A DNA stretch of 34,035 nt from a virus. The notes under the pieces were generated by a model, which ran no database searches, had not been told where the DNA came from, and saw nothing but the letters and a program-made list of their open reading frames with translations. Positions 774-16,309 of this stretch are shown here, piece after piece; within the stretch, counting starts at the first letter, position 1, and each line of letters begins with the position of its first letter. Location: IMG/VR virus record IMGVR_UViG_3300041956_000242, positions 1 through 34,035 of that record; one strand, written 5' to 3'. The translations under genes and the position numbers were made by a program.

Positions 774-801
774 CGGCCTCCCTTGTCGGTGTGTCTTATC
801 C

Positions 802-810
802 ATTATATCA
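802..810 (-). promoter_or_regulatory. Extended -10 promoter for the DUF6378/MazG pair
   Basis: The minus strand reads TGATATAAT, a consensus -10 (TATAAT) with the TGn extension. No good -35 is seen 17 bp upstream. It lies in the last codons of the helicase gene and 30 bases ahead of the preferred start at 773, so it could give the two distal genes their own transcript. Confidence 0.5.
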
Positions 811-3819: not shown

Positions 3820-3979
3820 GTTGGAGCTTGAGAATGAGCGTGTCGAGTCGCTCCGCCCAGTTCTCCTGAACGACCTCCGGCCAATGCCGGCTAACCGAAT
3901 CCATCAAGCCAACATGCACCATCAGCTCTGCCATCGTAATGACCAGAGCGCGGTACCTCGTGATCTCTATATCTTCCAC
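3767..3979 (-). CDS. Small helical protein, first gene of the leftward replication operon
   Basis: A 70-aa protein predicted to be almost all helix, with an amphipathic second half (ENWAERLDTLILKLQRETEE) and an acidic end (FAEAFDDPE). I do not recognise a family. The GTG start at 3979 lies about 50 nt downstream of the predicted leftward transcription start, and a GA-rich stretch (GAGAGGGGG) lies upstream. As the first gene behind the divergent promoter it is in the position where phages often keep a small regulator, but no HTH pattern is visible. Confidence 0.55.
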   Translation of the reverse strand: MEDIEITRYRALVITMAELMVHVGLMDSVSRHWPEVVQENWAERLDTLILKLQRETEEIQGFAEAFDDPE

Positions 3980-4034
3980 TCATGCTGCACCCCCTCTCTG
4001 CCGGTCGGCGCTGGTTGTGTCGCATCGACCCCAT

Positions 4035-4063
4035 ATCTTAACATATCCGCGTCTCAAAGTCAA
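4035..4063 (-). promoter_or_regulatory. Leftward sigma70-like promoter
   Basis: On the minus strand a TTGACT -35 (4058-4063) and a TAAGAT -10 (4035-4040) are separated by 17 bp. It faces away from the stronger rightward promoter and should drive the leftward operon starting at 3979. The 9-bp repeat arm at 4040-4048 abuts its -10. Confidence 0.65.
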
Positions 4064-4097
4064 ACTGACCATCCTATCCCAACGCGGTGGATATGTT
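4040..4097. repeat. Inverted repeat spanning the divergent promoters (operator candidate)
   Basis: AACATATCC at 4040-4048 and its exact reverse complement GGATATGTT at 4089-4097 are 40 bp apart. One arm touches the leftward -10, the other enters the rightward -35 (4096-4101). Related bases (CCGCGT and ACGCGG) also face each other inside the arms. A dimeric repressor or activator bound here could control both operons together. Confidence 0.5.
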
Positions 4098-4124
4098 GAC
4101 AGCCTTGCCGTGGTATTGTATAAT
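4096..4124 (+). promoter_or_regulatory. Rightward consensus sigma70 promoter
   Basis: TTGACA (4096-4101) and TATAAT (4119-4124) are both exact consensus with a 17-bp spacer, predicting transcription start near 4131 and a ~30-nt leader to the TTG start at 4161. It should be the strongest host-type promoter in the window and serve early expression of the primase/helicase. Confidence 0.88.
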
Positions 4125-4160
4125 ATCCCTAACGGCGAAAATCCCTGGAAGGAGGTCATT

Positions 4161-6140
4161 TTGGCAGGGATTTTGGACTTTCTCACCCTTGTGTGGGGTG
4201 ATCGGTTAGGTTGGGTGGACTTACCCTCGAAGGTACGAGGGCACTGGATCCCCTGGACGGCGTCGTGGCCCGAGGACAAACCCTCGATCAGGCGCCGGGT
4301 AGAGGATCTGATGGACGAAGAGGATCTGTACTTCTCGGTGGCACAGTTTAGCGAGGAGGGCCGCAACATCGACGCCACCATGTCCTCGCACTGGCTGTGG
4401 GCGGATCTTGATCGCGTCGGGCCCGACGACTGTGCCGTACTCGGGCTCACCCCCACAGTCTGCTGGGAATCGTCTCCCTGGCGGTTCCAGGCTTTGTGGA
4501 AACTGAACGCGAAGCTGAAGCCCGAGCCCCTGGCAAGGCTCAACAAAGCCCTCACCTACGCTATCGGCGCTGATCGCGGCGGTTGGGACCTTACGCAGGT
4601 CTTGCGTCCCGTTGGAACGCACAACTGGAAACACCCCGGCGCTCCTGAAGTACTGTTGGTCTACGACGATGGGCCTGAGTACGACTGGCGTGAGTTGAAG
4701 GACCAGCTGAAAGTCACGAAGCCGGGTAGTGCGCAGGCACAAGAACGGTTCCGCATCGACAAGCGGGACAAAATACCAGCTCGCGCACGGGCGCTGCTGA
4801 ATACGCCTAGGGACCGGGTAGTTGACGGTGAGAGGAGCAACACGCTCTGGCGGCTGAACTGCTCGCTGGCTGAAGCTGGCTTCGAGGAGGATCAGATCTT
4901 CGACCTCGTAGAGAGCTGTGCCTGGAATAAGTGGCCGAGGCACCCTCATCTCCTGAAGAAGGATATCGCGAGGGCTGTAGCGAAGGTGCTGGAGGATCGG
5001 GAGAAGATCGCGTCGAACGGCGGCAAGCACAAGGACGAAGCAGCCACGACGATCCTCGATGAGCGTGGCGTAGTGAAGATCGAGGACCTCGAGGGCATCG
5101 AAGAGGAGGAAGAGAAAGAACTCGAACTGCCGTTCACAAAGTACTCGCGGTTTATGTCGCAGAACCTCGAGGCCCCACGCTGGCTGGTCGACAACCTGTG
5201 GATGGCACACTCACACGGTATCATCGGCGGTGAGGCAAAGAGCAGCAAGTCGCTCATAGCAATGGCGATGGGGCTAGCAGTGGCGTCGGGGCGACCGTTC
5301 ATGGGGCTCGAGGAGTTCCAAGTCAACTCACCCGGCCCAGTCCTCATGATCCAGGAAGAGAATAGTCCGTGGGACGTGCAGGACAAGTTGATGAAGCTAG
5401 CGACACTCAGTGGACTGATGAAAGCTGGCCACTTCCCGCACGACTTTCCTCTCATGCTGCTCAACAACTACGGCTTCGACTTGTCCGACGATGAGCACCG
5501 GGGAGCGATTGAGGACCGAATCAGAGACGAGGGCGCTGTCCTGCTGATACTCGACCCGCTGTACCTCATGCTCGGTCCCACAGACGCCAATCACGCTGGC
5601 AATGTGGTGCCATTTCAGAAGTGGTTGCTGCAAGTCCGACATACCTACAACTGCGCCATCATGCTCGTCCACCACTTCGGGAAGCCGAGAATGGAGAATC
5701 AAGGTGTGAGGGCAGGGCACCGGCTATTAGGCTCGGGCACCTGGTACAACTGGGTGGAGTCGGCTCTGTACTGTCAGGCGATGGCTGGTAAGGGTTGGCA
5801 TGATGACGTCCATCACGGCCGGCCCGTCAACCGGCGGATCGGCATCGAGCGTGAGTGGCGTTCGGCCCCACCACAGGATGCGATTGACCTCCGCATGTAT
5901 ATGAGCAAGCCCGGCGCCTCGAGGATGATCGTGGAACATGATGCCCTCAACCGCAACACCACGGTGCAGGAGTTGGCTGAGATTGTGTCGGAAAGACCCG
6001 GCATTCTCATCACTGACCTTGCTCGTGCCATGTCTTCCGATGTGAGAACAGCACGGAAGTACGTTGTCGGCTCGGGCAAGTTCCGATTGGAGGAGCTGAA
6101 GCGCGGTCGTGGCATCTCGTACAAGGTGTTCCCGCTATGA
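4161..6140 (+). CDS. Primase-helicase: AEP-like domain fused to RepA-type ATPase
   Basis: A 659-aa replication protein. The N-terminal part (about residues 60-200) looks like the RepB/archaeo-eukaryotic primase fold: WADLD near residue 78 would give the catalytic acidic pair, and the SSPWRFQALWKL segment matches the conserved strand of these primases. The C-terminal part is a RecA/RepA-like hexameric helicase ATPase with Walker A GGEAKSSKS (about 356-363), Walker B LLILDPLY (about 460-468) and a sensor strand AIMLVHHFGKP (about 500). An acidic linker (IEEEEEKELEL) joins them. The start is a TTG with AAGGAGG five bases upstream; the frame stays open further left but only TTG 4161 has a ribosome site and follows the promoter. 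It should prime and unwind phage DNA. Confidence 0.85.
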   Translation: MAGILDFLTLVWGDRLGWVDLPSKVRGHWIPWTASWPEDKPSIRRRVEDLMDEEDLYFSVAQFSEEGRNIDATMSSHWLWADLDRVGPDDCAVLGLTPTVCWESSPWRFQALWKLNAKLKPEPLARLNKALTYAIGADRGGWDLTQVLRPVGTHNWKHPGAPEVLLVYDDGPEYDWRELKDQLKVTKPGSAQAQERFRIDKRDKIPARARALLNTPRDRVVDGERSNTLWRLNCSLAEAGFEEDQIFDLVESCAWNKWPRHPHLLKKDIARAVAKVLEDREKIASNGGKHKDEAATTILDERGVVKIEDLEGIEEEEEKELELPFTKYSRFMSQNLEAPRWLVDNLWMAHSHGIIGGEAKSSKSLIAMAMGLAVASGRPFMGLEEFQVNSPGPVLMIQEENSPWDVQDKLMKLATLSGLMKAGHFPHDFPLMLLNNYGFDLSDDEHRGAIEDRIRDEGAVLLILDPLYLMLGPTDANHAGNVVPFQKWLLQVRHTYNCAIMLVHHFGKPRMENQGVRAGHRLLGSGTWYNWVESALYCQAMAGKGWHDDVHHGRPVNRRIGIEREWRSAPPQDAIDLRMYMSKPGASRMIVEHDALNRNTTVQELAEIVSERPGILITDLARAMSSDVRTARKYVVGSGKFRLEELKRGRGISYKVFPL

Positions 6141-6514
6141 AGGAGGTACCGTACAACCAGCTCCTGAAGCGCGAGGGGCAGCGTTATGCCCTCAAAGACG
6201 AGGCCTTCTACAAGCTGCTCGATGAACTACGCCTACAGGCAGGCGGGCAGTGGAAGGATATTGCCCGTGAGGCGCGCATCTCCACCCGACATTTCCGAAG
6301 AGTCCGCGGTGAGCAGTACCCCACAGTCTCAATCCACGTCATGGATAAGATCCTGTCACGGATGGGTTTTCCACACCGCGTACAGGAGTTACGGTGGTAT
6401 ACTCCAAATGAATTGGTCGAGATGGGCGTTTGGAAACCCCACAACATCTCCGGTCTGCAAGAGACTAATAGACGTCGGAAAGCTGCAAAAGAACGCCGAC
6501 GCAAAGCCGCGTAG
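6137..6514 (+). CDS. Small HTH DNA-binding protein
   Basis: A 125-aa basic protein starting in an ATGA overlap with the primase-helicase stop. Residues 38-75 read as a helix-turn-helix of the XRE/Cro type: WKDIAREARISTRHFRRVRG, then a PTVSIHVMDKILSRMG helix, the usual order of recognition helix and following scaffold helix. The C-terminus is very basic (RRRKAAKERRRKAA). It is co-transcribed with the replication protein and precedes an AT-rich palindrome near 6618, so it may be an autoregulator or the control protein of the divergent promoters. The family is inferred from pattern only. Confidence 0.65.
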   Translation: MKEVPYNQLLKREGQRYALKDEAFYKLLDELRLQAGGQWKDIAREARISTRHFRRVRGEQYPTVSIHVMDKILSRMGFPHRVQELRWYTPNELVEMGVWKPHNISGLQETNRRRKAAKERRRKAA

Positions 6515-6965: not shown

Positions 6966-7262
6966 ATGGAACTGCAGCAACGCCTGACTCGTGACCTCGA
7001 GATGTTTGAAGCGCTAGCCGACAATGCTGCCGAACACGACAACTGGGGCGCCCACCACGACTGGTTGGTGGTGGCCAACTACATCAGGACTGTGCTTGCC
7101 GACGAGGGCGAGTACGTCGTCGCTGCCCTCTCGCTCTCTTCGCACGCCTCAGGTCGTCCAGCCAGCCTTTCTCGAGTGCTGCCACCCGACGGATCGCAGC
7201 TGGCACTGACCATTGCTGATCCTGCCATCGCACAACTCGAAGACTGTGACGAAGGATCTTGA
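6966..7262 (+). CDS. Small acidic protein, convergently overlapping
   Basis: A 98-aa protein with a helical, acidic first half (LTRDLEMFEALADNAAEHDNW) and a less structured second half. AAAGGA precedes the ATG. The last 179 nt overlap the leftward gene 7084-7476 on the opposite strand, which is unusual; the first 40 residues are outside the overlap and look like the best-supported part. No family recognised. Confidence 0.55.
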   Translation: MELQQRLTRDLEMFEALADNAAEHDNWGAHHDWLVVANYIRTVLADEGEYVVAALSLSSHASGRPASLSRVLPPDGSQLALTIADPAIAQLEDCDEGS

Positions 7263-7782: not shown

Positions 7783-7822
7783 AAAAAGAAGGGGCAGGCC
7801 CCACCGCAGAAGGGCCCGCCCC
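7783..7822 (-). terminator. Rho-independent terminator of the 182-aa gene
   Basis: On the minus strand GGGGCGGGCCC (7822-7812) pairs with GGGGCCTGCCCC (7802-7791) across a 9-nt loop, followed by TTCTTTTT (7790-7783). This is a textbook intrinsic terminator, placed 38 nt after the stop of gene 7860-8408. A smaller hairpin (GTCCC/GGGAC) sits directly after the stop. Confidence 0.85.
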
Positions 7823-7859: not shown

Positions 7860-8408
7860 CTACTCGTCGTCCTCGTCCTCGAAGTCTTCCTCGTCTTCTT
7901 CGACGACCTTCTTGGACTTCTTGGTGCCTGCCTTGGACGAAGCCTTCTTCTTCTTGTTCTTGCCGACGCGCTCCTTCAGCTCGTCGAGCCGCTGGGCGCG
8001 CGACTCCGCCAGTCCCTTCTTCGCGGCGGCGATGGACTTGAAGCCCATCTCCGACACCGCGTCCTCGACGGAGTCCCACTCGTAGCGGTTGTTCTCGTTC
8101 TTCTCGACCTTGTGCTGACGGAGCATGACGCGCAGCTCCCGGCCCGACGTGCCCAGAGCTTCGGCGAGCTCTGCGGACCCGATCATGCCGTCGTCACGCT
8201 TCTTCGGCTTGCGCGAGGACTTCTTCTTCGCCTTGGGAGTGTCCTCCTCGTCTTCGTCCTCGTCTTCTGCTTCGTCCTCGTCCTCGTCCTCGTCGGCCTC
8301 ATCGACCGGCTCGTCCTCGAGATCCTCGAGGTCTTCGAGCTCCTCGAGTTCGTCCTCTACGACCTCAGCCTTCTTCGAGGTCTTCGCCTTGCTTCTTGCA
8401 CGGGCCAC
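7860..8408 (-). CDS. Mini-HTH paralogue 1 with long acidic and basic arms
   Basis: A 182-aa protein with a compact domain (about residues 75-130: SAELAEALGTSGRELRVMLR, then NRYEWDSVEDAV) between low-complexity arms. Residues 15-57 are nearly pure Asp/Glu, then a Lys-rich stretch, and the C-terminus has KKKKASSKAG and another Glu/Asp run. The domain matches the small proteins at 11216, 13592 and 14141: LAxxL, then LRxxLR, then a W-containing strand. This is a helix-turn-helix with a wing, probably DNA binding. GTG at 8408 has AAGGAGG four bases upstream. It has its own promoter (8472-8500) and terminator (7783-7822). The acid arms recall histone-like or DNA-mimic tails; function unknown. Confidence 0.8.
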   Translation of the reverse strand: MARARSKAKTSKKAEVVEDELEELEDLEDLEDEPVDEADEDEDEDEAEDEDEDEEDTPKAKKKSSRKPKKRDDGMIGSAELAEALGTSGRELRVMLRQHKVEKNENNRYEWDSVEDAVSEMGFKSIAAAKKGLAESRAQRLDELKERVGKNKKKKASSKAGTKKSKKVVEEDEEDFEDEDDE

Positions 8409-8471
8409 CTGGCCTCCTTATCCGCGCACTTGGGATGGTTGGCTATGAGCGTGCGCTAGACTCATATGACT

Positions 8472-8500
8472 ATCATATCAACCCAGGGTCGCCGTGTCAA
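8472..8500 (-). promoter_or_regulatory. Leftward sigma70-like promoter of the 182-aa gene
   Basis: On the minus strand TTGACA (8495-8500) and TATGAT (8472-8477) are 17 bp apart; the five bases before the -10 are gTTGA, the same as at 13817-13845. Transcription should start near 8465, giving a ~57-nt leader to the GTG at 8408. Confidence 0.85.
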
Positions 8501-8508
8501 CTGCCCCG

Positions 8509-8802
8509 TCAGTCGTCGGGATGGTCGTTCTGGCAAATGATTCGGACGACCATGTCCTGGGCGAGAACTGCGCCGAACTCCGACATCCGTGCGAGCTGTT
8601 GGGCGTTGAGGCCTTTTCTCATCTCCACAACTGCGGAATTCTCTGTGGGGTAATGAACCGTGTACTCGATCCGCTCATCGTGGAGGGCGAAGGTGACTTC
8701 TGCGAGTGAGAAAAGGCCCACCTCCACTGGCTTGTCGAACTCACCAAGCTTGACCTTCTCAGGCTTCTTGGGTTTTACCTGCTTCGGCTTGCTCTGAGCC
8801 AC
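8509..8802 (-). CDS. 97-aa protein of unknown function
   Basis: GTG at 8802 has AAGGAGG eight bases upstream. The N-terminus is Lys/Pro-rich (KPKQVKPKKPEKVKLG), followed by a beta-rich segment (EVTFALHDERIEYTVHY) and a helix with LNAQQLARMSEFGAVLAQDM. Near the end ICQNDH contains single Cys and His. It is upstream of the promoter at 8472-8500, so it belongs to a separate leftward transcript. No family recognised. Confidence 0.65.
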   Translation of the reverse strand: MAQSKPKQVKPKKPEKVKLGEFDKPVEVGLFSLAEVTFALHDERIEYTVHYPTENSAVVEMRKGLNAQQLARMSEFGAVLAQDMVVRIICQNDHPDD

Positions 8803-8928
8803 AGTATGCCCTCCTTGTTCGAAGCGGTTACGGAGAGGGCCCTCCGGCGCGCTGGGCGAATCCGCTGCCTTCGGGCTCCCATGCTGCTGGGCGATGCGTC
8901 TGCGTACCGTATCACCCGAAACTCGGGG

Positions 8929-9282
8929 CTATTCACCACCGTTCCGGGCGAACTCAGCCGACTCTTGAGAGATCTCGAGCGGCTTCATGGTCGGCCACTC
9001 GTCAGCTGTGGTAGGCGCGCGATCCGGCTCGCGGTGTGAGATCCACGCGAGGTACGCTGCCTCCAAGGCATGCGAGCGTAGGATGTCGACCTGCAGTCCC
9101 ACCCTGACACAGTCGGACTGTATCGTGCGCCACTCCTCGAACAGTTCGTAGAGCTGACCATCGAGGTACTTGATCTTGTCAGCCAGTGCCGACATGCGAA
9201 GCACTGTTGCATCTGTGGGAGTGGTAATCATCGGCTTGACCTCCTCGACGACAACCATCTCCTGCTGCTTTTTCTTCCTCAC
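8929..9282 (-). CDS. 117-aa helical protein
   Basis: Starts at a GTG (9282) behind an AAGGGAGAGG tract. After a basic start (RKKKQQE) comes a predicted two-helix stretch around SALADKIKYLDGQLYELFEE and a second helix with DILRSHALEAAYLAWISHR. It looks like a small coiled-coil protein. It follows the gene 9295-9534 by 12 nt. No family recognised. The 126 nt between it and the next gene (8802-8929) hold nothing I can name. Confidence 0.6.
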   Translation of the reverse strand: MRKKKQQEMVVVEEVKPMITTPTDATVLRMSALADKIKYLDGQLYELFEEWRTIQSDCVRVGLQVDILRSHALEAAYLAWISHREPDRAPTTADEWPTMKPLEISQESAEFARNGGE

Positions 9283-9294
9283 ACCCTCTCCCTT

Positions 9295-9534
9295 CTATTG
9301 GCTTTTTCGCCACATCTCCTCGATGAGGGCCCAGACGCGATCTTCCTCGAAGTTTGCCCCGGCGGTGATTGCAGCCCAGCGTACTGCGTCGAGGATCTGC
9401 ACTGGGCTCTTGCCCTCCATAGAGATGTGCTCCTGATACCGTCCATACCTGACGGTGATCGTGCGGTCTGCGTTCTGGGTCAGCGTTAGGGATGCGATGG
9501 TGCCCTCATCTCGTCGGCGATGTTCTGCTGCCAC
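9295..9534 (-). CDS. Small protein with ambiguous start
   Basis: The C-terminal 65 residues look like a real domain: a beta hairpin (LTLTQNADRTITVRYGRYQE) and a helix pair (VQILDAVRWAAITAG, then RVWALIEEMWRKSQ). No ordinary start lies just before the hairpin. The GTG at 9534 is chosen, but its GAGGAG is too close. An ATG at 9420 has GGAG nine bases upstream but would cut off the hairpin. An ATC start coupled to the stop of the upstream gene is also possible. It overlaps that gene by about 49 nt. No family recognised. Confidence 0.45.
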   Translation of the reverse strand: MAAEHRRRDEGTIASLTLTQNADRTITVRYGRYQEHISMEGKSPVQILDAVRWAAITAGANFEEDRVWALIEEMWRKSQ

Positions 9535-9836
9535 TCCTCGAGGAAACCGTCGAGGTGCTTCGCGTAGCCAATAGCGCCGGCCACGTAGAAGCACAAGGCG
9601 AAGGTTCGCTCGGCGTCGTCCTCCTGCACCCACGGATTGTGAACCTCACAGTCTGGGTCGGTGCAATCAGTCCGCTGCGCATGCTTAAGGAGCTTTCTCA
9701 TGCGGTGTAGCTTCTCGAGGTACTGCGCCTCAAGCTTCTCTGCCTCAGCGCGGTGCTCGTCACAGAGCACGTCGGTCGAGGACCCGTCATGGTACACGGG
9801 CTTGCTGCACTTGCGGCATGGGTCGATCACTGCCAT
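9486..9836 (-). CDS. Zinc-binding small protein
   Basis: A 116-aa protein starting at ATG 9836 with AGGAGGTG upstream (the stop of the preceding gene lies in it). The N-terminus reads DPCRKCSKPVYHDG then VLCDEH, a CxxC plus CxxxH pattern typical of a treble-clef or DksA-like knuckle; a later CTDPDCEVH could bind a second metal. A long charged helix lies between. It is co-transcribed with the 56-aa zinc-finger gene that precedes it. Function unknown. Confidence 0.7.
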   Translation of the reverse strand: MAVIDPCRKCSKPVYHDGSSTDVLCDEHRAEAEKLEAQYLEKLHRMRKLLKHAQRTDCTDPDCEVHNPWVQEDDAERTFALCFYVAGAIGYAKHLDGFLEEWQQNIADEMRAPSHP

Positions 9837-9840
9837 TCTA

Positions 9841-10011
9841 TCACCTCCTCTTCTTGCAGTCTCCACACACGACCATGAGGCGTCCTGTGCGTGGGTTGGT
9901 GATGCTCTGAGTCGTCAACGGGGAAGGGCACTTGCATCGGGTACAGCGCGTTTCGCGGAGCAGTTTTGCCGCAATCGCTCTCCCCGATTGTCTTCCATGT
10001 TGACGTTTCAT
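9841..10011 (-). CDS. 56-aa zinc-finger protein, probably leaderless
   Basis: A short frame missed by a 60-codon cutoff. It begins MKRQHGRQSGRAIAAKLL and contains CTRCKC (about residues 23-28) and VVCGDCKKRR at the end, so two CxxC pairs about 25 residues apart, a typical zinc ribbon. The ATG at 10011 lies five bases after a TATAAT box, which puts it at or next to the expected transcription start, so it should be translated from a leaderless message. It ends 4 nt before the next gene, and its last codons hold that gene's ribosome site. Basic; likely nucleic-acid binding. Confidence 0.75.
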   Translation of the reverse strand: MKRQHGRQSGRAIAAKLLRETRCTRCKCPSPLTTQSITNPRTGRLMVVCGDCKKRR

Positions 10012-10016
10012 ACCAC

Positions 10017-10045
10017 ATTATACATGATCCCGCAACCCGGGTCAA
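10017..10045 (-). promoter_or_regulatory. Leftward sigma70-like promoter with start codon at +1
   Basis: Minus strand TTGACC (10040-10045), 17 bp, TATAAT (10017-10022). Only five bases separate the -10 from the ATG at 10011, which implies a leaderless transcript. A copy of the TCTAACAG repeat (10058-10081) sits just upstream. Confidence 0.85.
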
Positions 10046-10057
10046 ACCTACTCGGCA

Positions 10058-10081
10058 GACCATCTAACAGTCTCTGTGGCC
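10058..10081. repeat. Distant copy of the TCTAACAGAC repeat
   Basis: TCTAACAGTC at 10063-10072, flanked by GACC on the left and GGCC on the right, matches the three copies near 13.5-13.9 kb in core, length and GC-rich ends. It lies directly behind the stop of the leftward gene 10081-10353 and 13 bp upstream of the -35 at 10040-10045. Confidence 0.55.
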
Positions 10082-10353
10082 TAAAGGTGAATGAGCTCGT
10101 GGATACCCCACGCAGCCAGAGGCAGCCCGATGAGGAACATGAAGAGGAGGAATGCCTCGATCCAGAAGCGCCAGAAGTTGGTCTTTTGCCGTCGCTCCTC
10201 GAACCTGCGCCGTTGCTCCTCGTGCTCAGCCCTAATGAGGTCGGGACGGGGTGCGTACTCCGCCTGGTCGAACGGCTTGAACGCAGGCTCCGCGCCGACT
10301 CGGGGACAGAACTCACACCCCCGGTCCCAACATACGGCACATTGTGGGCTCAT
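10081..10353 (-). CDS. Small membrane protein with N-terminal CxxC motifs
   Basis: A 90-aa protein. The N-terminus has CAVCWDRGCEFCPR, two close CxxC pairs that could bind zinc or iron or form disulfides. An acidic/basic helical stretch (AEHEEQRRRFEERRQK) follows, and residues about 62-82 form one transmembrane helix (FWIEAFLLFMFLIGLPLAAW). The ATG at 10353 overlaps the upstream stop (ATGA) and follows an AGGGGG tract. The N-terminal domain is predicted cytoplasmic. Function unknown. Confidence 0.65.
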   Translation of the reverse strand: MSPQCAVCWDRGCEFCPRVGAEPAFKPFDQAEYAPRPDLIRAEHEEQRRRFEERRQKTNFWRFWIEAFLLFMFLIGLPLAAWGIHELIHL

Positions 10354-10517
10354 GACTCGCCCCCTACCCCGAACCTTCTCACGTAGATGCCGGCCGTCGT
10401 CTTCTCGCCGCACTTGTAGCACACTTCCTCGTCGGCGCCGATGACTTGTACGGGCTGACGGTCGGGCTCTTCCTCACGCCAGCACTTCTCACAGATGGGC
10501 ACAGTTTTCCAGCTCAT
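10350..10517 (-). CDS. 55-aa zinc-ribbon protein
   Basis: Contains CEKCWREEEP near residue 10 and CYKCGEKT about 22 residues later, a clear two-knuckle zinc ribbon. The ATG at 10517 overlaps the preceding stop (ATGA) and has AAGGA six bases upstream; it ends in another ATGA with the next gene. Probably a structural zinc module with protein- or nucleic-acid-binding role. Confidence 0.7.
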   Translation of the reverse strand: MSWKTVPICEKCWREEEPDRQPVQVIGADEEVCYKCGEKTTAGIYVRRFGVGGES

Positions 10518-10735
10518 GCTGTGTCCTTCGCCCACTCCCAGATGGTCTGCGGGTTGATGCAGGCCGGACTGGTGTGATACCTGTGGGGGTCTTCGCCTTC
10601 GTACACGAGGCCGTAGCCGTATTCACCGTTGAACTGGTTCTCGTACCGCACGATCTTGATGACCAGCGGGTCGCCTGGGTATCGTCCCTCGTGGGCGATG
10701 ATCTCGTCGGCGATCTCCTTGCTAACCGTCGCCAC
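10514..10735 (-). CDS. 73-aa protein of unknown function
   Basis: GTG at 10735 with GGAGGA eight bases upstream, inside the last codons of the preceding gene. The sequence starts with a helix (VSKEIADEIIAHEG) followed by a strand-rich segment (LVIKIVRYENQFNGEYGYGL) and HRYHTSPACINP. It looks like a small alpha/beta protein. No family recognised. Confidence 0.65.
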   Translation of the reverse strand: MATVSKEIADEIIAHEGRYPGDPLVIKIVRYENQFNGEYGYGLVYEGEDPHRYHTSPACINPQTIWEWAKDTA

Positions 10736-10970
10736 GGGGATCGTCCTCCGTGATCGTGACTTCCTCGCAGTTGTAGGCGAGATGAATCCAGATCCAGACG
10801 TTCTCACCGTCGAGGTTCTGTCCGTAGATCTCGACGGACGTGCGGTCGCCATTCCAGACGATCTTGTTGGCGACGATGTCCTTGTACCGCTCCTTGTAGA
10901 TCACGGGGCGGAATCCGAGGTGCTCGTGCAGGGCGTCGAGCGCCTTCTCCTCACGGGACGGGTCAGGCAT
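10722..10970 (-). CDS. 82-aa protein of unknown function
   Basis: ATG at 10970 behind AGGAGG. A helical start (SREEKALDALHEHLGF) precedes strands (VEIYGQNLDGENVWIWIHLA) and an acidic end. The plan (helix, strands, acid tail) resembles the next gene 10514-10735 in layout, but I cannot align them with confidence. It overlaps its upstream neighbour by 8 nt and its downstream one by 14 nt. Confidence 0.65.
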   Translation of the reverse strand: MPDPSREEKALDALHEHLGFRPVIYKERYKDIVANKIVWNGDRTSVEIYGQNLDGENVWIWIHLAYNCEEVTITEDDPRGDG

Positions 10971-11154
10971 TTTCTCCTCCTACGATCCAGTAGATGTTGC
11001 CGTCGGGCTCGATGTGTCCGACAGCCGGCCCATCAACGCTCTCCCCGGAAAACAACAGGGAGCCGTCGAAGTCGTGCGTGGTCTCGAGATTATCTAACCG
11101 TGAGGTCAGGTCCTCGATGGTCTTCTCTTGCGCGGGTGTGTTGGTGTAGACCAT
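10963..11154 (-). CDS. 63-aa coiled-coil/beta protein
   Basis: ATG at 11154 with a strong GAGGAGGTG six bases upstream. A short coiled coil (EKTIEDLTSRLDNLE) is followed by a beta-rich end (GHIEPDGNIYWIVGG). First gene of the run that continues to 10081; no promoter is clear upstream, so it may depend on readthrough of the hairpin at 11186-11209. Confidence 0.6.
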   Translation of the reverse strand: MVYTNTPAQEKTIEDLTSRLDNLETTHDFDGSLLFSGESVDGPAVGHIEPDGNIYWIVGGENA

Positions 11155-11185
11155 GTGTTCACCTCCTCTCGATGTACTAAGGGAA

Positions 11186-11209
11186 GGGCACCGGGATTAA
11201 CCGATGCCC
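11186..11209 (-). terminator. Hairpin terminator behind mini-HTH paralogue 2
   Basis: On the minus strand GGGCATCGG and CCGGTGCCC form a 9-bp stem (one G-U) around a 6-nt loop, followed by TTCCCTT. It lies a few bases after the stop at 11216. The short pyrimidine tail fits a weak intrinsic terminator. Confidence 0.7.
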
Positions 11210-11215
11210 TCGACC

Positions 11216-11449
11216 TTAGGACTCGTCGGAGTCCTCGTCCTCGCTCGGCGTGAAGCGCTCGCGCACAGCCTGAGCCTGCTTCTCGGTCAGCGCCCACGAG
11301 GTATTCTTCTCGTCGGTCTTGCGCGGGAACTCCGTGCGGAGAAACGCGCGGATGCGCTTCCCGGAAACGCCCAGCTCGGTCGCCAGGTCCTCCGGCTTGA
11401 TCACCGGCTTCGCCTCGGCGGCCTTCTCCTGAGTCTTGTTCTCGGCCAT
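11216..11449 (-). CDS. Mini-HTH paralogue 2
   Basis: A 77-aa protein: Lys/Glu/Ala-rich N-terminus, then the shared domain (about residues 18-66) with PEDLATELGVSGKRIRAFLR, KNTSWALTEKQA and AVRERF, then an acidic tail (SEDEDSDES). Compared with paralogues at 13592 and 14141 it keeps RAFLR and KNTSW exactly. The domain looks like a winged helix-turn-helix. ATG 11449 has AAAGGAGGTG six bases upstream. It has its own promoter (11555-11563), a structured leader (hairpin 11487-11519) and a terminator (11186-11209), so it is a stand-alone unit. Likely DNA binding; role unknown. Confidence 0.8.
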   Translation of the reverse strand: MAENKTQEKAAEAKPVIKPEDLATELGVSGKRIRAFLRTEFPRKTDEKNTSWALTEKQAQAVRERFTPSEDEDSDES

Positions 11450-11486
11450 ATGTGTCACCTCCTTTCCTCTCCCATACACCCCACAA

Positions 11487-11519
11487 GGGCGCCCCGACCT
11501 CTCCCTATGCGAGGCGCCC
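11487..11519 (-). promoter_or_regulatory. Leader hairpin ahead of mini-HTH paralogue 2
   Basis: GGGCGCC (11487-11493) and GGCGCCC (11513-11519) are exact inverted repeats, 19 nt apart, in the ~100-nt leader between the promoter near 11558 and the ATG at 11449. It could act as an attenuator, an operator or a leader stabiliser; the downstream ribosome site is outside the stem. Confidence 0.45.
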
Positions 11520-11554
11520 ATGTGAGGTGTGCGGAAGTGTGATTCATCTTACGT

Positions 11555-11563
11555 AGTATATCA
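11555..11563 (-). promoter_or_regulatory. Extended -10 promoter of mini-HTH paralogue 2
   Basis: Minus strand TGATATACT: TATACT with the TGn extension; the same -10 hexamer and preceding TGA occur at the paralogue 3 promoter (13817-13845). The -35 is weak. Confidence 0.6.
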
Positions 11564-11618
11564 CATCGGGCAGCTGTGTGCACCGTGGCGGAAAATGTTT
11601 TCTCCGCAAGCACTTCGG

Positions 11619-11810
11619 TTACATCCTCCCCCAGTTCTTGAGGGCCTTAGCACTCTCAAGGATATAGGGAATGTAGTTGGGTAGGACGTCGGCGATGATC
11701 TTACGGAGCTCATCGTCGGTCAGGTCCTCGAAGTCGTCGACGCCGCCTTCGGCTATGAAGATGTCGAAGGCGGCACCGTCGAACCATGTGGGTGTCGGCT
11801 CAGGTGTCAT
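11619..11810 (-). CDS. 63-aa acidic helical protein
   Basis: ATG 11810 lies 11 nt inside the end of the upstream gene. The protein has an acidic helix (VDDFEDLTDDELRKIIADVL) and a short basic end (ALKNWGRM). Translation probably depends on coupling, as the ribosome site is weak. No family recognised. Confidence 0.6.
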   Translation of the reverse strand: MTPEPTPTWFDGAAFDIFIAEGGVDDFEDLTDDELRKIIADVLPNYIPYILESAKALKNWGRM

Positions 11811-12273
11811 AGCCGATGGAAATGGTGCGGATGTGGTCGATGGGCACACGGACAGTCGTGGCCTCGTTTTGATCGCCATGGAACTCCTCGATGGTGAGGA
11901 ACTCCCAGCGGGAGAAGTGTGAGGTGTAGTCCTCCGGCTCGGTCTCGTAGTCGAGCTCGATGGTGTCACACATTACGGCATCGGAGTAGTCCTTGTCATC
12001 GGATCCCATGTGATAGCCGGAGTACGTGCCCATAGCACTGGGAGCACCGTGCATGACGGTGATTCGCCAGTCCCAATCGGATGTGTGCTCGAGTTCTCCC
12101 TGGTCGAGCACGAATTGGTAGAGCTTGATCAGCGCGTGGATACGGAACACGCGAGATTGGTGAGACAGACTGTCAGACAGGAAAAATGTCCCACAGACCA
12201 TCTCAGAGAGTTCACCAGACAGCTGTGGTGAGACCCTCTCGAGGTCGAGTTGGTGGTACGGGACGTGAGGCAT
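11800..12273 (-). CDS. 157-aa protein of unknown function
   Basis: Starts at an ATG sharing one base with the upstream stop (TGATG), with AAGGGG upstream. The sequence looks globular, alternating helices and strands: ALIKLYQFVLDQGELEH, then WDWRITVMHG, an acidic loop (MGSDDKDYSDAVMCDTIELD), and FSRWEFLTIEEFHGD followed by RVPIDHIRTISIGYD. The last segment looks like the edge of a beta sheet. No family recognised. Confidence 0.65.
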   Translation of the reverse strand: MPHVPYHQLDLERVSPQLSGELSEMVCGTFFLSDSLSHQSRVFRIHALIKLYQFVLDQGELEHTSDWDWRITVMHGAPSAMGTYSGYHMGSDDKDYSDAVMCDTIELDYETEPEDYTSHFSRWEFLTIEEFHGDQNEATTVRVPIDHIRTISIGYDT

Positions 12274-12485
12274 CAAAGCCCCTTTCTCGCAGCCCACAGC
12301 ACAGCATCTGTGGTGGACATGCGGTTGGTGATGAGGGTGCGTGTGGCCTTCTCGAGGTGTTCGGAGCAGAGAAGGGCACCGCCCTTGGTGTCTGACCAGA
12401 GGACTGCGCCCGCGGAACCTTCACGGGCACAGTCGTCATAGCCACCGAGACGACGCCATTGGCATCGCTTGGATCCTTTCTTCAT
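12273..12485 (-). CDS. 70-aa Cys/His-containing basic protein
   Basis: A small basic protein with CQWRRLGGYDDC and later LLCSEHLEKA, giving three Cys and one His in a C-x10-C...C-x2-H layout that could bind one zinc. ATG 12485 overlaps the stop of the His-repeat gene (ATGA). A GGTGAAG tract is upstream. Function unknown. Confidence 0.65.
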   Translation of the reverse strand: MKKGSKRCQWRRLGGYDDCAREGSAGAVLWSDTKGGALLCSEHLEKATRTLITNRMSTTDAVLWAARKGL

Positions 12486-12634
12486 GGCTTCACCTTCACG
12501 GCGACAGGCTGCCCGGTATGGGCATGCGGCATGTAGGTGTAGCCTGGGCGCAGCTTCGGCACTCTAACAGCTACCGGCTGCCCGGTGTGAGCATGAGGCA
12601 CGTAATGGACCTCATACTCGACAGGCTTGGGCAT
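12482..12634 (-). CDS. 50-aa protein with two copies of a His-containing repeat
   Basis: A short frame below the usual cutoff. It contains YVPHAHTGQPVAVRV and again YMPHAHTGQPVAVKV, 23 residues apart, so nearly the whole protein is a duplication. The two copies differ at many third codon positions, so the duplication is not recent and selection appears to keep PHAHTGQPVAV. The start shares one base with the upstream stop (TAATG) and the end overlaps the next start (ATGA), which fits a real gene in this tightly packed operon. The HxH pair could bind metal; function unknown. Confidence 0.75.
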   Translation of the reverse strand: MPKPVEYEVHYVPHAHTGQPVAVRVPKLRPGYTYMPHAHTGQPVAVKVKP

Positions 12635-12837
12635 TACAGTCCTACCCCAGCGTTCTGGACGTAGGCGTCGCGAGCCCTCTGGAGTTTCTCGAGGGTCTCG
12701 ACGTAGGAGGCGTAGGTGTGAGGATCCTTCATCGGGAGGTTGGGGAATTTCTCCGCAGCCTCGTCGATTTCCTTGATCCTTGCCTCGACGAGCATCTCCA
12801 GGTTGAGAGCCTGAAGCATCGTCAGTTCCACGTTCAT
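12634..12837 (-). CDS. 67-aa coiled-coil protein, first gene of the leftward cluster
   Basis: ATG 12837 with AGGGCGGA just upstream. The sequence (LNLEMLVEARIKEIDEAAEK, then YASYVETLEKLQRARDAY) is two amphipathic helices, so a helical hairpin. It is the first gene behind the extended -10 promoter at 12867-12875. No family recognised. Confidence 0.65.
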   Translation of the reverse strand: MNVELTMLQALNLEMLVEARIKEIDEAAEKFPNLPMKDPHTYASYVETLEKLQRARDAYVQNAGVGL

Positions 12838-12866
12838 AGTTCCGCCCTTTCGTTGTTCATGCCTAC

Positions 12867-12875
12867 ATTGTATCA
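12867..12875 (-). promoter_or_regulatory. Extended -10 promoter for the leftward small-gene cluster
   Basis: Minus strand TGATACAAT (TACAAT plus TGn). The -35 is poor. Predicted start near 12860, about 23 nt before the ATG at 12837 with its ribosome site. Confidence 0.5.
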
Positions 12876-12987
12876 TCCAGGGAGTCGGCTCGTGCCATAT
12901 GACTGACCAGTGGAGAATAAATATTCCGATGCCACTAGTCGTTGGCCTACCCATATGCCACAAGTCGATGGCGCCTCCACGAGCATT

Positions 12988-12993
12988 TACAAT
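12988..12993 (+). promoter_or_regulatory. -10 box with the small-terminase ATG at +1
   Basis: TACAAT at 12988-12993 is followed by six bases and then the ATG at 13000, the spacing expected for a leaderless message. The -35 region (TCGATG) matches only partly. No ribosome site is visible for any candidate start. Confidence 0.5.
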
Positions 12994-12999
12994 AGAACC

Positions 13000-13482
13000 A
13001 TGGCTGGTTCGGCCAAAAACCTCCAGAATCAGAGTAATTCCGAGCGCTCACCTACACAACTGGCGGCTATCCGGCTCTATTCTGCCGGAAACCCGAGAAA
13101 AACCGTGGCAAAAGCTCTGGCACCGTACCTATATCCCGAAATCTGGGCTGAGGACGAGCCACTAGCAAGGCGCATGGCCTACAAGCGCGTCAGAGCCTGG
13201 GAGGAGACAGCCTGGTTCCGTGATGCCGTCTACGAGTCCACCATAGCCCGGGTAGATGCACAAGTACCACAGATCCTCAATGGTATGGCCAGGCGCGCCC
13301 GCAGGCGAGTGGATGCGGCCAGGCTAATGCTGGAGGTCACTGGGCGCCACAATCCTCGCGGGCAAGAGGTTCAGCCAGCTGTGGTACAGATCCAGTTCGG
13401 CGGCAACATGCCACGGCCACAGAACAGGCCTGAGATAGAGGATGGCAGTGTGGTGGACGCCGAAGTGGTGGAAGAGGACTAG
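13000..13482 (+). CDS. Terminase small subunit (phBC6A51-like)
   Basis: A 160-aa protein that binds phage DNA at the packaging start. The N-terminal half has homeodomain-like helices (SPTQLAAIRLYSAGNPRKTV, then LARRMAYKRVRAWEE) and the C-terminal half the helical pair typical of the phBC6A51-type small terminases (YESTIARVDAQVPQILNGMA and VDAARLMLEVTGRHNPRG). A frame continues upstream to a GTG at 12910 and ATG at 12955, but neither has a ribosome site and ATG 13000 is right after a -10 box. Its stop codon overlaps the first CTATATGGCC repeat. Unusually, 1.1 kb of leftward cassettes separates it from the large subunit. Confidence 0.75.
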   Translation: MAGSAKNLQNQSNSERSPTQLAAIRLYSAGNPRKTVAKALAPYLYPEIWAEDEPLARRMAYKRVRAWEETAWFRDAVYESTIARVDAQVPQILNGMARRARRRVDAARLMLEVTGRHNPRGQEVQPAVVQIQFGGNMPRPQNRPEIEDGSVVDAEVVEED

Positions 13483-13543
13483 CTATATGGCCGGGGGCCA
13501 TCTAACAGACTCAGGGGCCTTGGCGAAGCACAGCTATATGGCC
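13481..13543. repeat. Repeat cluster 1: two CTATATGGCC copies and one TCTAACAGAC copy
   Basis: AGCTATATGGCC occurs at 13481-13492 and 13532-13543. Between them is TCTAACAGAC (13501-13510) within GGCC ... GGGGCC ends (13498-13521). The first copy overlaps the stop of the small terminase gene. The cluster lies downstream of mini-HTH paralogue 3 on the minus strand. Confidence 0.75.
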
Positions 13544-13557
13544 GCGCCGGGGAGGGG

Positions 13558-13585
13558 GAGAGAGGCGGGTTTCCCCGCCCCTCTC
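13558..13585 (-). terminator. GC-rich hairpin terminator behind mini-HTH paralogue 3
   Basis: On the minus strand GAGAGGGGCGGG pairs with CCCGCCTCTCTC around GAAA. It lies a few bases after the stop at 13592. No T tract follows, so termination may need factors; G+C-rich hosts often use such hairpins. Confidence 0.6.
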
Positions 13586-13591
13586 AAGGCA

Positions 13592-13780
13592 CTAGGCCGT
13601 CTCGCTCTTGGCGAAGTGCTCACGAGCCGCGGTCACGGCGTCCGGACCGATCGACCAAGAGGTATTCTTGGCATCGGCGGGGCGCGTGAAGTTGGCCCGC
13701 AGGAAAGCGCGCAGGCGCTTGGGATCGACCTGGAGCTCTGCGGCGAGCTCCTTGGGCGTGGTCATTTTCACGTCGGCCAT
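13592..13780 (-). CDS. Mini-HTH paralogue 3
   Basis: A 62-aa protein that is almost only the shared domain: TPKELAAELQVDPKRLRAFL, then KNTSWSIGPDAVTAAREHFA. It is close to paralogue 4 (same length, most residues identical) and more distant from paralogues 1 and 2. The likely fold is a winged helix-turn-helix. ATG 13780 has AAGGAGGTG five bases upstream; an in-frame upstream ATG at 13810 has none. It lies between terS and terL on the opposite strand with its own promoter (13817-13845) and hairpin (13558-13585), so it is an independent cassette. DNA binding is inferred; target and role unknown. Confidence 0.82.
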   Translation of the reverse strand: MADVKMTTPKELAAELQVDPKRLRAFLRANFTRPADAKNTSWSIGPDAVTAAREHFAKSETA

Positions 13781-13816
13781 TTCCTCACCTCCTTCCTTTT
13801 CAACGTTCATACCTGT

Positions 13817-13845
13817 AGTATATCAACCACGGCACCACATGTCAA
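13817..13845 (-). promoter_or_regulatory. Leftward sigma70-like promoter of mini-HTH paralogue 3
   Basis: Minus strand TTGACA (13840-13845), 17 bp ending in gTTGA, TATACT (13817-13822). Nearly the same arrangement as the promoter at 8472-8500. Start predicted near 13810, about 30 nt before the ATG. Confidence 0.85.
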
Positions 13846-13869
13846 CCACGTGGCAGCCTTTTTCTCCCC

Positions 13870-13969
13870 AGCTATATGGCCGGCACCAAACCCCCCCAAG
13901 CCATCTAACGGACTGGTGGGCCGCGCCGCAGGCCTTCTAACAGACCGCAGGGCCGTTGGCTATATGGCC
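13870..13969. repeat. Repeat cluster 2: two CTATATGGCC and two TCTAACAGAC copies
   Basis: Order along the plus strand: CTATATGGCC (13872-13881), TCTAACGGAC (13904-13913), TCTAACAGAC (13936-13945), CTATATGGCC (13960-13969). Each TCTAAC core is in a 24-bp unit with GGCC-type ends, so it can form a short hairpin. The cluster fills the gap between the 24-aa membrane peptide and the promoter of paralogue 3. Confidence 0.75.
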
Positions 13970-13981
13970 CGGCCGCGCTAC

Positions 13982-14000
13982 CCCGGGCTAGTGCCCGAGG
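13982..14000 (-). terminator. Short hairpin at the end of the 24-aa peptide gene
   Basis: CCCGGGC (13982-13988) and GCCCGAGG (13993-14000) pair across CTAGT-like loop bases including the stop codon. Without a T tract it is a weak terminator candidate. Confidence 0.4.
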
Positions 14001-14062
14001 TAGTACGCGCCGTAGCTGATCGCGAGCCAGATTGCAGCCCACAGGAGGATCGCTCCGAGCAT
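13988..14062 (-). CDS. 24-aa membrane peptide
   Basis: ATG 14062 has AAAGGAG four bases upstream and opens a 24-codon frame, MLGAILLWAAIWLAISYGAY then YLGH. It is a single hydrophobic helix with polar end. The strong ribosome site makes a real gene likely despite the size. It lies between the terminator of mini-HTH paralogue 4 and the repeat cluster. It resembles in kind, not clearly in sequence, the 27-aa peptide at 7473. Role unknown; small phage membrane peptides often act on the host envelope. Confidence 0.6.
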   Translation of the reverse strand: MLGAILLWAAIWLAISYGAYYLGH

Positions 14063-14099
14063 CCTGCTCCTTTCCGCGTTCGTTCGTTCGATTGTAGGG

Positions 14100-14131
14100 G
14101 AACGCGAGGGGGACGAATCCCCCCCGCGTTC
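14100..14131 (-). terminator. 14-bp hairpin with UUCG loop behind mini-HTH paralogue 4
   Basis: On the minus strand GAACGCGGGGGGGA pairs with TCCCCCTCGCGTTC around TTCG, the very stable UUCG tetraloop. All 14 positions pair if one G-U is allowed on the minus-strand RNA; on the plus strand that position is an A-C mismatch, so the structure is built for leftward transcripts. It starts 10 nt after the stop at 14141. Confidence 0.75.
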
Positions 14132-14140
14132 GGCGCGAAC

Positions 14141-14329
14141 CTACTTCGTCTCGGACTTCGCGAAGTGTTCGCGAGCGGCGGCCTGTGCTTCCGGGCCGAT
14201 GCTCCACGAAGTGTTCTTCGCGTCGTTCGAGCGCGTGAAGTTCGCGCGAAGGAACGCCCGCAAACGCTTCGGGTCGATCTGCAAAGCGTTCGCCAGCTCC
14301 TTCGGCGTGACGTTCTTCGTTTCGCTCAT
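14141..14329 (-). CDS. Mini-HTH paralogue 4
   Basis: A 62-aa protein very close to paralogue 3: TPKELANALQIDPKRLRAFL, then KNTSWSIGPEAQAAAREHFA. The nucleotide sequence differs far more than the protein, with codons rich in TTCG/CGAA words, so it was probably acquired separately or has evolved under another base bias. No ribosome site precedes the ATG at 14329; instead a -10-like TACCAT lies six bases upstream, so a leaderless transcript is likely. It ends in the strong UUCG hairpin. Winged helix-turn-helix fold and DNA binding are inferred. Confidence 0.8.
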   Translation of the reverse strand: MSETKNVTPKELANALQIDPKRLRAFLRANFTRSNDAKNTSWSIGPEAQAAAREHFAKSETK

Positions 14330-14335
14330 ATACGT

Positions 14336-14363
14336 ATGGTAGCAAACGAACGAACGATCGCAA
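14336..14363 (-). promoter_or_regulatory. Promoter candidate for mini-HTH paralogue 4
   Basis: Minus strand TTGCGA (14358-14363), 16 bp, TACCAT (14336-14341); both boxes match consensus at four of six bases. The ATG follows six bases after the -10. Weaker than the other promoters, but the only candidate for this gene. Confidence 0.4.
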
Positions 14364-14512
14364 TAGTCCGTTCGGCCTATCTTCGTTGGTCATACGTACC
14401 ACAAACGTACGTTCGATTCGTTCGTTCATCATCACCACGATCGTACGCTGCAATCGTTGACGAACGCAATCGTTCGAACGTTCGATCGTTGCACCGTACA
14501 ACGAACCACCCC

Positions 14513-14553
14513 CCCCTAGGGGACGCGATGGGGGAATTGGATTTCGGATCCAA
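14513..14553. other. Palindromes upstream of the large terminase operon
   Basis: CCCCTAGGGG (14513-14522), preceded by a run of Cs, and TTGGAT - TTCGG - ATCCAA (14537-14553) lie in the gene-free stretch before 14619. Such GC-rich palindromes next to terminase genes can be cos/pac elements or terminators; nothing else here decides it. Confidence 0.3.
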
Positions 14554-14824: not shown

Positions 14825-16309
14825 ATGGCCGGTTCCGTCCTCACCCTCGACATTCCGTACGCCCCGCTCCCGAAGCAGCGAGAGGCGCACGGCCTGACCG
14901 CGAAGTACCGCGGCTTCTGTGGTGGGTGGGGCAACGGCAAGACCAGCTGGGGCTGCGTTGAGACCTTCACGACCCTCATGGAGTACCCGGGCACCAACTG
15001 CATCATCGCCCGTAAGACCCGCCCGGAGCTCAAAGCCACCACCTGGGAGATGTTTCTCCACGGTGACCCGGGCCAGCCCACAGGTTGGCAAGGCGTCCCT
15101 CGCCAGCTGATCCGCTCCCTGAACAAGGCCGACCTCTACATGGAGCTGCAGACCCCCGACCCCCAGCTCACCAGTAAGATCTGGGGGCTCCCGCTGGACG
15201 ACCCGAGCAAGCTGGAGAACTATAACCTCGGCTTCTTCTGGATCGACCAGGCCGAGGAGGTGGAGGAAGACATCTTCCTTAAGTTCCACGGACGTCTGCG
15301 CCAGCTCCACGCTCCACGCGAGGGGATCCTCACGTTCAACCCGAACGGACATAACTACCTGTGGAGGAGATTCATCGACCCGGACCGTGACCCGGCCTTC
15401 CGCAAGAACTATAAGTGCGTCGAGGCCACCACGTTCGACAACCCGAACCTGCCGGAGGACTACTTCGACCAGTTCGCAGGACTCCCGGAGGCATGGCTCC
15501 AACGCTTCGTACACGGCTCCCACGAGGTGTTCACCGGGCAGATCTTCACCGACTGGGACCCCGAGATCCATGTCGTACAACCGTTCCATATCCCCAAGGA
15601 GTGGCCACGGTACGCTTGCATCGACCCTGGGATCCGCCACGAAGGCGCTGTTACTTGGTGCGCCCGCGACCCGGACCGCAACGTCTATTACTACCGCGAG
15701 TGTCTACGCTCAGGCCAGCCCGTTGAGTGGTGGGCCCAGTACATCCACGAAGCCGAAGCCGCACCCGACTGGGGGGGCCCCAACGAGCACGTCTCGTTCT
15801 ACCTGATTGGGCCGGAAGCGCAGCAACGGTCCCAGACTGACGGCAAAAGCGTCATGCAGCTCTACTGGGAGCACGGCGTGTACCCCGAGCTGGCCGATAA
15901 AGATCCAAGCGCACGGATCTCCAAGATCACTGAGTACCTGCGCCCCGCAGCAAACCATCTCAACCCGTTCACCGGCACCTCCCCGGCCCCTCGGCTGTAT
16001 GTCTTCGCCGACTGTGAGAAGCTGCTGACGTACATACCGCAGTACCGTTGGCGCCCACAGCGCGTTAACTACACCGAGGAGGACTCCCCGGAAAAACCCC
16101 GCAAGAAGGACGACCACAACATCGACAACCTGGGCCACATCCTGCTCTACATCGACCCCCTCCCAGCCCCCGAGGGCGACGCACCGCGCTTGAGCCCTGA
16201 GCAGCGCCTGCTGTCAGACCTGATGGACGAGTGCTGGACGGAGGCCGAACTCGTGAGCAGAGGAGGAGGACACGACATTCTTCCCACCTACACCCATCTT
16301 CCGAAATGA
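14825..16309 (+). CDS. Terminase large subunit
   Basis: A 494-aa packaging motor ATPase and nuclease. Walker A GGWGNGKT lies at residues 33-40, Walker B plus catalytic Glu in FFWIDQAEE at about 137-145. The RNase H-like nuclease has its first Asp in YACIDPGI (about 266) and later acidic residues in DDHNIDNLGH (about 429-438). This order and length are typical of TerL. It cuts concatemeric DNA and pumps it into the prohead through the portal. ATG 14825 has no strong ribosome site. The last codon overlaps the endolysin start (ATGA), so termination and lysin translation are coupled. Confidence 0.92.
   Translation: MAGSVLTLDIPYAPLPKQREAHGLTAKYRGFCGGWGNGKTSWGCVETFTTLMEYPGTNCIIARKTRPELKATTWEMFLHGDPGQPTGWQGVPRQLIRSLNKADLYMELQTPDPQLTSKIWGLPLDDPSKLENYNLGFFWIDQAEEVEEDIFLKFHGRLRQLHAPREGILTFNPNGHNYLWRRFIDPDRDPAFRKNYKCVEATTFDNPNLPEDYFDQFAGLPEAWLQRFVHGSHEVFTGQIFTDWDPEIHVVQPFHIPKEWPRYACIDPGIRHEGAVTWCARDPDRNVYYYRECLRSGQPVEWWAQYIHEAEAAPDWGGPNEHVSFYLIGPEAQQRSQTDGKSVMQLYWEHGVYPELADKDPSARISKITEYLRPAANHLNPFTGTSPAPRLYVFADCEKLLTYIPQYRWRPQRVNYTEEDSPEKPRKKDDHNIDNLGHILLYIDPLPAPEGDAPRLSPEQRLLSDLMDECWTEAELVSRGGGHDILPTYTHLPK

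Follow-up and report, generated by a model that had tools for sequence, protein, structure and literature searches.

Known single-domain proteins and the P1 to P4 locus

Small DNA-binding proteins made of one MerR-like winged helix-turn-helix (wHTH) domain have been described in several systems. BldC of Streptomyces (68 amino acids, aa) carries neither a dimerisation nor an effector domain and is reported to bind AT-rich direct repeats head to tail, with protected tracts one helical turn apart (PMC5859096). RdfS and Xis are comparable to BldC in their binding of direct repeats (PMC11963761); the known excisionases assemble head to tail into filaments on DNA and act as promoter regulators as well. 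Among phages, the Arthrobacter podovirus Jasmine (PMC5513430) has a leftward DNA-binding gene beside its rightward late operon. Here we analysed a virus record from IMG/VR (34,035 bases), termed the window, in which four leftward genes, P1 to P4, are predicted to encode small wHTH proteins. P3 and P4 lie inside the interval between the putative small (TerS) and the large (TerL) terminase genes, antisense to both, and P2 and P1 are located to the left of TerS among leftward genes.

The products of P2, P3 and P4, termed the mini proteins, are like BldC stand-alone wHTH domains of about 70 aa free of a coiled coil or effector domain, a description that does not fit P1. In relatives, but not in the window itself, AT-rich direct repeats are present one helical turn apart at the likely target promoters, resembling the layout reported for BldC. 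The mini proteins differ from BldC in their wing region (K-N-T-S-W), in being phage-borne and multi-copy, and in that their DNA binding is only predicted. Jasmine has a major capsid protein related to that of the window; in contrast, the product of its leftward gene is an unrelated protein with an Lsr2-type C-terminus, the gene is present in two copies only because it is located in the terminal repeat, and Jasmine has no mini wHTH. An earlier note on this DNA, made from the letters alone, knew of no described system with this layout. Novelty does not extend to every part, as BldC, Xis and RdfS were already known as single-domain wHTH proteins on direct repeats and the Jasmine gene is comparable. 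The parts are of known kinds; no description of their combination (several paralogs that are each transcribed independently, two of which lie within the terminase locus, kept throughout a phage group) was found in the literature searched, which omits most subscription journals.

Kinship, transcription signals and conservation of the four genes

The earlier note had proposed four paralogs, each in its own leftward transcription unit. All four open reading frames (ORFs) were found on the minus strand (Table 1). Judged from their sequences, P2, P3 and P4 are clear paralogs, with an identity of 79% between P3 and P4 and of 46% over 54 aa between P2 and P4. By BLASTP, P1 was not alignable to P2. 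When a P2-P4 profile was run on the 746 ORFs of the window, the best remaining ORF was P1 (E 0.0035); comparison of the mini and P1 family profiles gave an E of 7.7e-5 at a probability of 62% only, and the P1-family profile weakly recovered mini proteins of other phages (18-27 bits). Because of these weak profile matches, and because models of both kinds landed on the same fold, P1 is probably a distant paralog; the proposed kinship holds for P2-P4 and only as a probable, distant one for P1. As noticed earlier, P1 has charged arms: beside its wHTH core it has an acidic arm at the N-terminus, stretches rich in Lys, a long helix and, at the C-terminus, an acidic tail.

A recent duplication of the whole cassette was considered as the origin of P3 and P4 and was rejected, the coding DNA being about 70% identical and the flanks not aligning. 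In a tree of mini proteins, the copies left of TerS group partly, with too few columns to resolve the order of duplication. The P3/P4 and G014 pairs look concerted, which, if true, would bear on the question why phages keep near-duplicate regulators.

Table 1. Positions of the genes and DNA elements discussed (window coordinates except for the last row).
Feature	Position	Strand	Remarks
P1	7860..8408	-	182 aa; wHTH core at about residues 75-147
P2	11216..11449	-	77 aa; mini wHTH with acidic C-terminal tail
P3	13592..13780	-	62 aa; mini wHTH
P4	14141..14329	-	62 aa; mini wHTH
P1 promoter candidate	8472..8500	-	TTGACA-17-TATGAT, TG before -10
P1 hairpin	7791..7822	-	terminator-like, with T tail
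P2 promoter candidate	11555..11582	-	weak -35, TGTGATATACT extended -10
P2 hairpin	11185..11210	-	directly 3' of the gene, without T tail
P3 promoter candidate	13817..13845	-	TTGACA-17-TATACT, TG before -10
P3 hairpin	13558..13585	-	directly 3' of the gene
P4 promoter candidate	14336..14363	-	TTGCGA-16-TACCAT, TG before -10
P4 hairpin	14100..14131	-	directly 3' of the gene; 14-bp arms, 4-nt loop
Repeats around P3	13482..13969	-	four exact GGCCATATAGC and three GTCYGTTAGAWGGC copies
AACGATYG repeats	14451..14490	-	three, 16 bp apart, upstream of P4
G-run	14509..14516	-	position equivalent to the GGCAGGGGG element of relatives
Putative TerS	12910..13482	+	by position and conservation; without family match
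TerL	14825..16309	+
Primase-helicase	3939-6140		RepB-type primase fused to an AAA helicase domain
Helicase	808-2397
Lsr2-like gene of Jasmine (L088)	373-927	-	Jasmine coordinates; inside terminal repeat; position comparable to the mini genes

A promoter candidate in front and a hairpin directly behind were found for each of the four genes, as had been noted, with a weaker site before P2; only the P1 hairpin has a T tail. To assess these signals, 33 mini and 15 P1-type genes of related contigs were compared with 751 other ORFs preceded by a ribosome-binding site, a control set that was drawn up mechanically and also contains genes within operons and unlikely ORFs; the comparison therefore shows that the signals stand out and not that each promoter works. 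The promoter scores of P1 to P4 were 13, 11, 13 and 10; a score of 10 was reached by 5% of the 751 controls and a score of 13 by none. Over the relatives, promoter scores exceeded those of the controls (p 4e-11 for mini, 1.5e-11 for P1-type genes), and a strong P1-type promoter was present in nearly every one. The median hairpin energy in the 50 nt behind the gene was -27.8 kcal/mol for mini genes (p 4e-22) and -20.2 kcal/mol for P1-type genes (p 2e-7), compared to -10.5 kcal/mol in the controls. The enrichment of promoters and hairpins across the relatives is thus far beyond chance. Between positions 7000 and 15500 no Rfam match was obtained at E up to 0.1, and therefore no known structured RNA explains the hairpins.

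This enrichment supports separate leftward units, with a reservation for P2: because the next leftward gene begins about 50 bp past its hairpin, P2 may head an operon rather than form a strictly single unit. The -10 box of P4 ends 6 nt before the ATG and a ribosome-binding site is absent; because the promoter candidate sits so close to the start codon, the P4 message appears to be leaderless.

Relatives were gathered by alignment-based scans of IMG/VR followed by searches of whole records. The mini and P1 families occur in the same IMG/VR phages, each phage having a single P1-type gene and in most cases two mini genes in the related contigs that cover the region. At least two mini copies were present in at least 19 distinct contigs, including three low-GC contigs (about 40%) of a more distant group, and all 17 contigs with an assignable TerS position have at least one mini gene in reverse orientation between TerS and TerL. 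One contig, L102, repeats the four-gene order of the window (mini, mini, TerS, acidic-tailed mini, P1-type). The earlier idea of an expanded family of small, predicted DNA-binding proteins in separate units is thereby extended to many related phages, and because these viruses keep the arrangement, the gene set probably does a shared job in them, such as gene control or DNA shaping. The low-GC contigs (L013, L119 and L120) have the same mini pair, of which the second gene has a promoter and a hairpin and the first a promoter without a strong hairpin; L119 and L120 also encode a related primase-helicase (34% identity). The mini family is therefore older than the clade of the window. Searches of 50,697 cultured phage genomes by tblastn and of GTDB genomes by degenerate patterns yielded no relatives; such scans reach close relatives only. 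Both families are missing from the cultured phages Jasmine, DS1 and Shocker.

Predicted folds and known families

AlphaFold2 models were made for P4 with 25 family sequences and for P1 with 14, P2 and P3 being represented through their close alignment to P4. The P4 model is a four-helix wHTH (helices at 9-16, 20-30 and 46-61, and a strand) with a mean predicted local distance difference test score (pLDDT) of 76. In the P1 model, the core exceeds a pLDDT of 90 and the arms are disordered. Both models show a helix-turn-helix followed by a wing and a further helix, as in MerR-like proteins. Differing folds, which would have spoken against a single family, were looked for and not seen: the P1 and P4 models share their fold and P2 and P3 align closely with P4.

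In Foldseek searches of the PDB, RacA ranked first for both models, with a probability of 1.00 for P1 and of 0.90 for P4; P4 also matched pSK1 Par (0.93), BldC (0.77) and Pukovnik Xis (0.77). The DNA-binding domains of RacA and pSK1 Par are thus the best or near-best matches of P1 and P4. These two proteins differ from P1 and P4 in having partner or coiled-coil parts of their own and in serving to anchor chromosomes or to partition plasmids; a partner of that kind was not seen here. Phage TerS domains (7lw0, 7lwr) and lambda gpNu1 appeared weakly at lower ranks for P4. MerR_1 of Pfam touches 14 of the 25 family members below threshold (best E 1.6e-4) and HTH_17 also matches under its curated cut-offs; no Pfam or PHROG family reaches threshold for these proteins, a few members weakly matching TerS PHROGs and others weakly matching excisionase PHROGs. 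The Lsr2-like fold suggested earlier was not supported, as no Pfam match to an Lsr2 fold or DNA-binding motif was found and the predicted folds match MerR-like wHTH proteins. Combined, the models and profiles suggest that the four genes encode small MerR-like wHTH proteins of the BldC/Xis/RacA type, predicted to bind DNA.

Direct repeats, possible functions and genome setting

In 36 upstream regions of mini genes from relatives, exact TGTWW pairs with starts 11 bp apart were found 14 times, and no other spacing between 5 and 30 bp gave more than two (mean in shuffles 0.29); about 670 kb of sequence holds only 22 such pairs in total. When one mismatch was allowed, TGTAA repeats 11 bp apart were present in 18 of 33 mini upstream regions, compared to at most one case at spacings of 6-10 and 12-21 bp and four at 22 bp, the multiple. 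The repeats are located just upstream of the mini promoters and tend to opposite orientations at the TerL-side and TerS-side copies. Repeat-bearing promoters had weak -35 boxes (p 0.035), which might mean activation, although this is only suggestive.

The reading that we favour, and for which we see the case as evenly poised, is that the four genes encode a set of cooperative DNA binders that regulate themselves or each other where the early and late operons meet. Three bare wHTH domains (P2-P4) and one with charged disordered arms (P1) would each be expressed from a host-type promoter of their own and closed off by a hairpin. Binding of the mini proteins would be cooperative and head to tail, on direct repeats that are in helical phase and lie at the promoters of their own genes as well as of the other copies. 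In this way they would set their own level and also control the junction at which the leftward early genes meet the late operon, which runs rightward with TerL and the virion genes. P1, whose promoter is among the strongest, would serve as a partner that coats DNA more generally. The main ground for this mechanism is that the 11-bp phased repeats resemble the direct-repeat binding of BldC, RdfS and Xis. If the reading is true, the terminase locus, which is usually thought to hold packaging genes only, is a place where lytic phages maintain a small set of filament-type wHTH proteins, each transcribed independently, and a phage parallel to BldC-type regulation would exist. The phased repeats would then provide a defined and testable candidate operator for a family that is not covered by public family libraries and cultured phage genomes.

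Several observations weigh against this reading. Firstly, the 11-bp repeats are absent from the four promoters of the window itself, in which the candidate operators would be the 16-bp-spaced AACGATYG repeats before P4 only; all four copies of the octamer in the window fall upstream of P4. Secondly, the 11-bp motif was counted in the very sequences whose inspection by eye had revealed it, the phages are related and hence not independent samples, and a motif of the TGTWW type is favoured by AT-rich promoter regions. Thirdly, the similarity to BldC and Xis is not significant in sequence, the family profile missing BldC chains at E up to 10; the mean pLDDT of the P4 model is as given above; and the Foldseek E-values are 0.05 or worse, with none reaching 0.001. 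Such weak E-values are expected for about 60 residues, and the matches agree with each other and with the sub-threshold Pfam hits.

A nucleoid-associated or silencing set, in which P1 as main coat protein and its paralogs broadly coat phage or host DNA like the Lsr2-like proteins of actinobacteriophages, seems improbable to us. The strong P1 promoter in nearly every relative, the disordered acidic and Lys-rich arms with their long helix, the first-ranking match of P1 to RacA, an architectural protein, and the leftward Lsr2-like gene in the terminal repeat of Jasmine, one of the cultured phages whose capsid protein is most similar, are all consistent with it. However, an Lsr2 fold was not found, and the specific spacing of the repeats at the mini promoters speaks for binding guided by sequence in the case of the mini proteins.

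The location of mini genes between TerS and TerL would also be explained by a packaging accessory that binds repeats beside a packaging or genome-end site and helps the terminase to choose or hold DNA. In most relatives, the DNA that separates the rightward genes from the mini gene on the TerL side carries CCTTCTCGCTTCGCTC, then TTCCTCC, then GGCAGGGGG, of which the window keeps only the G-run; this element is a candidate packaging or genome-end signal and found no match in cultured phages, hence no tie to a known cohesive end. Both the conserved GGCAGGGGG element and the 16-bp-spaced repeats adjoin the TerL-side copy, and within the window exact copies of GGCCATATAGC and GTCYGTTAGAWGGC are confined to the surroundings of P3. 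The terminase small-subunit domains (7lw0, 7lwr, lambda gpNu1) share with the mini proteins a weak fold match and a place beside terminase genes, and to this the weak TerS PHROG matches can be added. Nevertheless, a TerS would be expected upstream of TerL, in the same orientation and with an oligomerisation domain, whereas the mini genes are antisense, independently transcribed single domains and a separate putative TerS exists. A 16-bp array was not confirmed as general in all genomes (lag 16, combined z 3.3): the periodicity is clear in only about 6 of 15, L100, from outside the discovery set, giving a z of 4.9. Phased repeats just upstream of the mini promoters are what regulation would predict, P2 and P1 lie outside the terminase interval, and packaging needs no separate promoter for each copy. 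We regard a packaging accessory as doubtful.

Single-gene units with host-type promoters and hairpins, oriented opposite to their surroundings, are also suggestive of moron-like host-takeover or anti-defence genes, each independently expressed after entry; this is very unlikely, as place and copy number are deeply conserved across divergent phages, unlike the usual turnover of such genes, and as the repeats at their own promoters suggest regulation. Excisionases or lysogeny regulators, in spite of the fold match to the mycobacteriophage Pukovnik Xis and the weak excisionase PHROG matches, are the least credible candidates, as neither tyrosine integrases (PF00589) nor serine recombinases (PF00239) were detected in 11 contigs in which positive controls were, the mini genes lie in several copies between terminase genes, and the gene content examined (PolA, exonuclease, Sak4, helicase, thymidylate synthase) held no lysogeny gene.

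Returning to the cooperatively binding regulatory set, a further possibility, which we rate as rather unlikely, is that it belongs to an undescribed phage control or packaging module, in which repeatedly duplicated single-domain wHTH proteins, as filaments on phased repeats within the interval from TerS to TerL, would work with a nucleoid-like paralog bearing arms to couple late transcription to DNA packaging.

The window also carries genes for MazG, portal, major head and tail proteins. Similar major head proteins (about 25-31% identity) are found in cultured phages of Arthrobacter, Microbacterium and Cellulosimicrobium, and because of the hosts of these phages an actinobacterial host is likely. 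The relatives encode DNA polymerase A (PolA), an exonuclease, Sak4 and thymidylate synthase. The repeats GGCCATATAGC and GTCYGTTAGAWGGC are near reverse complements that could form hairpins, and similar repeats are present in relatives. Between P4 and P3, a tiny ORF with a ribosome-binding site (13988-14061, minus strand; MLGAILLWAAIWLAISYGAYYLGH) possibly encodes a membrane peptide; its sequence is not conserved among relatives. Immediately after the primase-helicase gene, an ORF of 125 aa (6137-6514, plus strand) possibly encodes a helix-turn-helix protein and is kept in several relatives.

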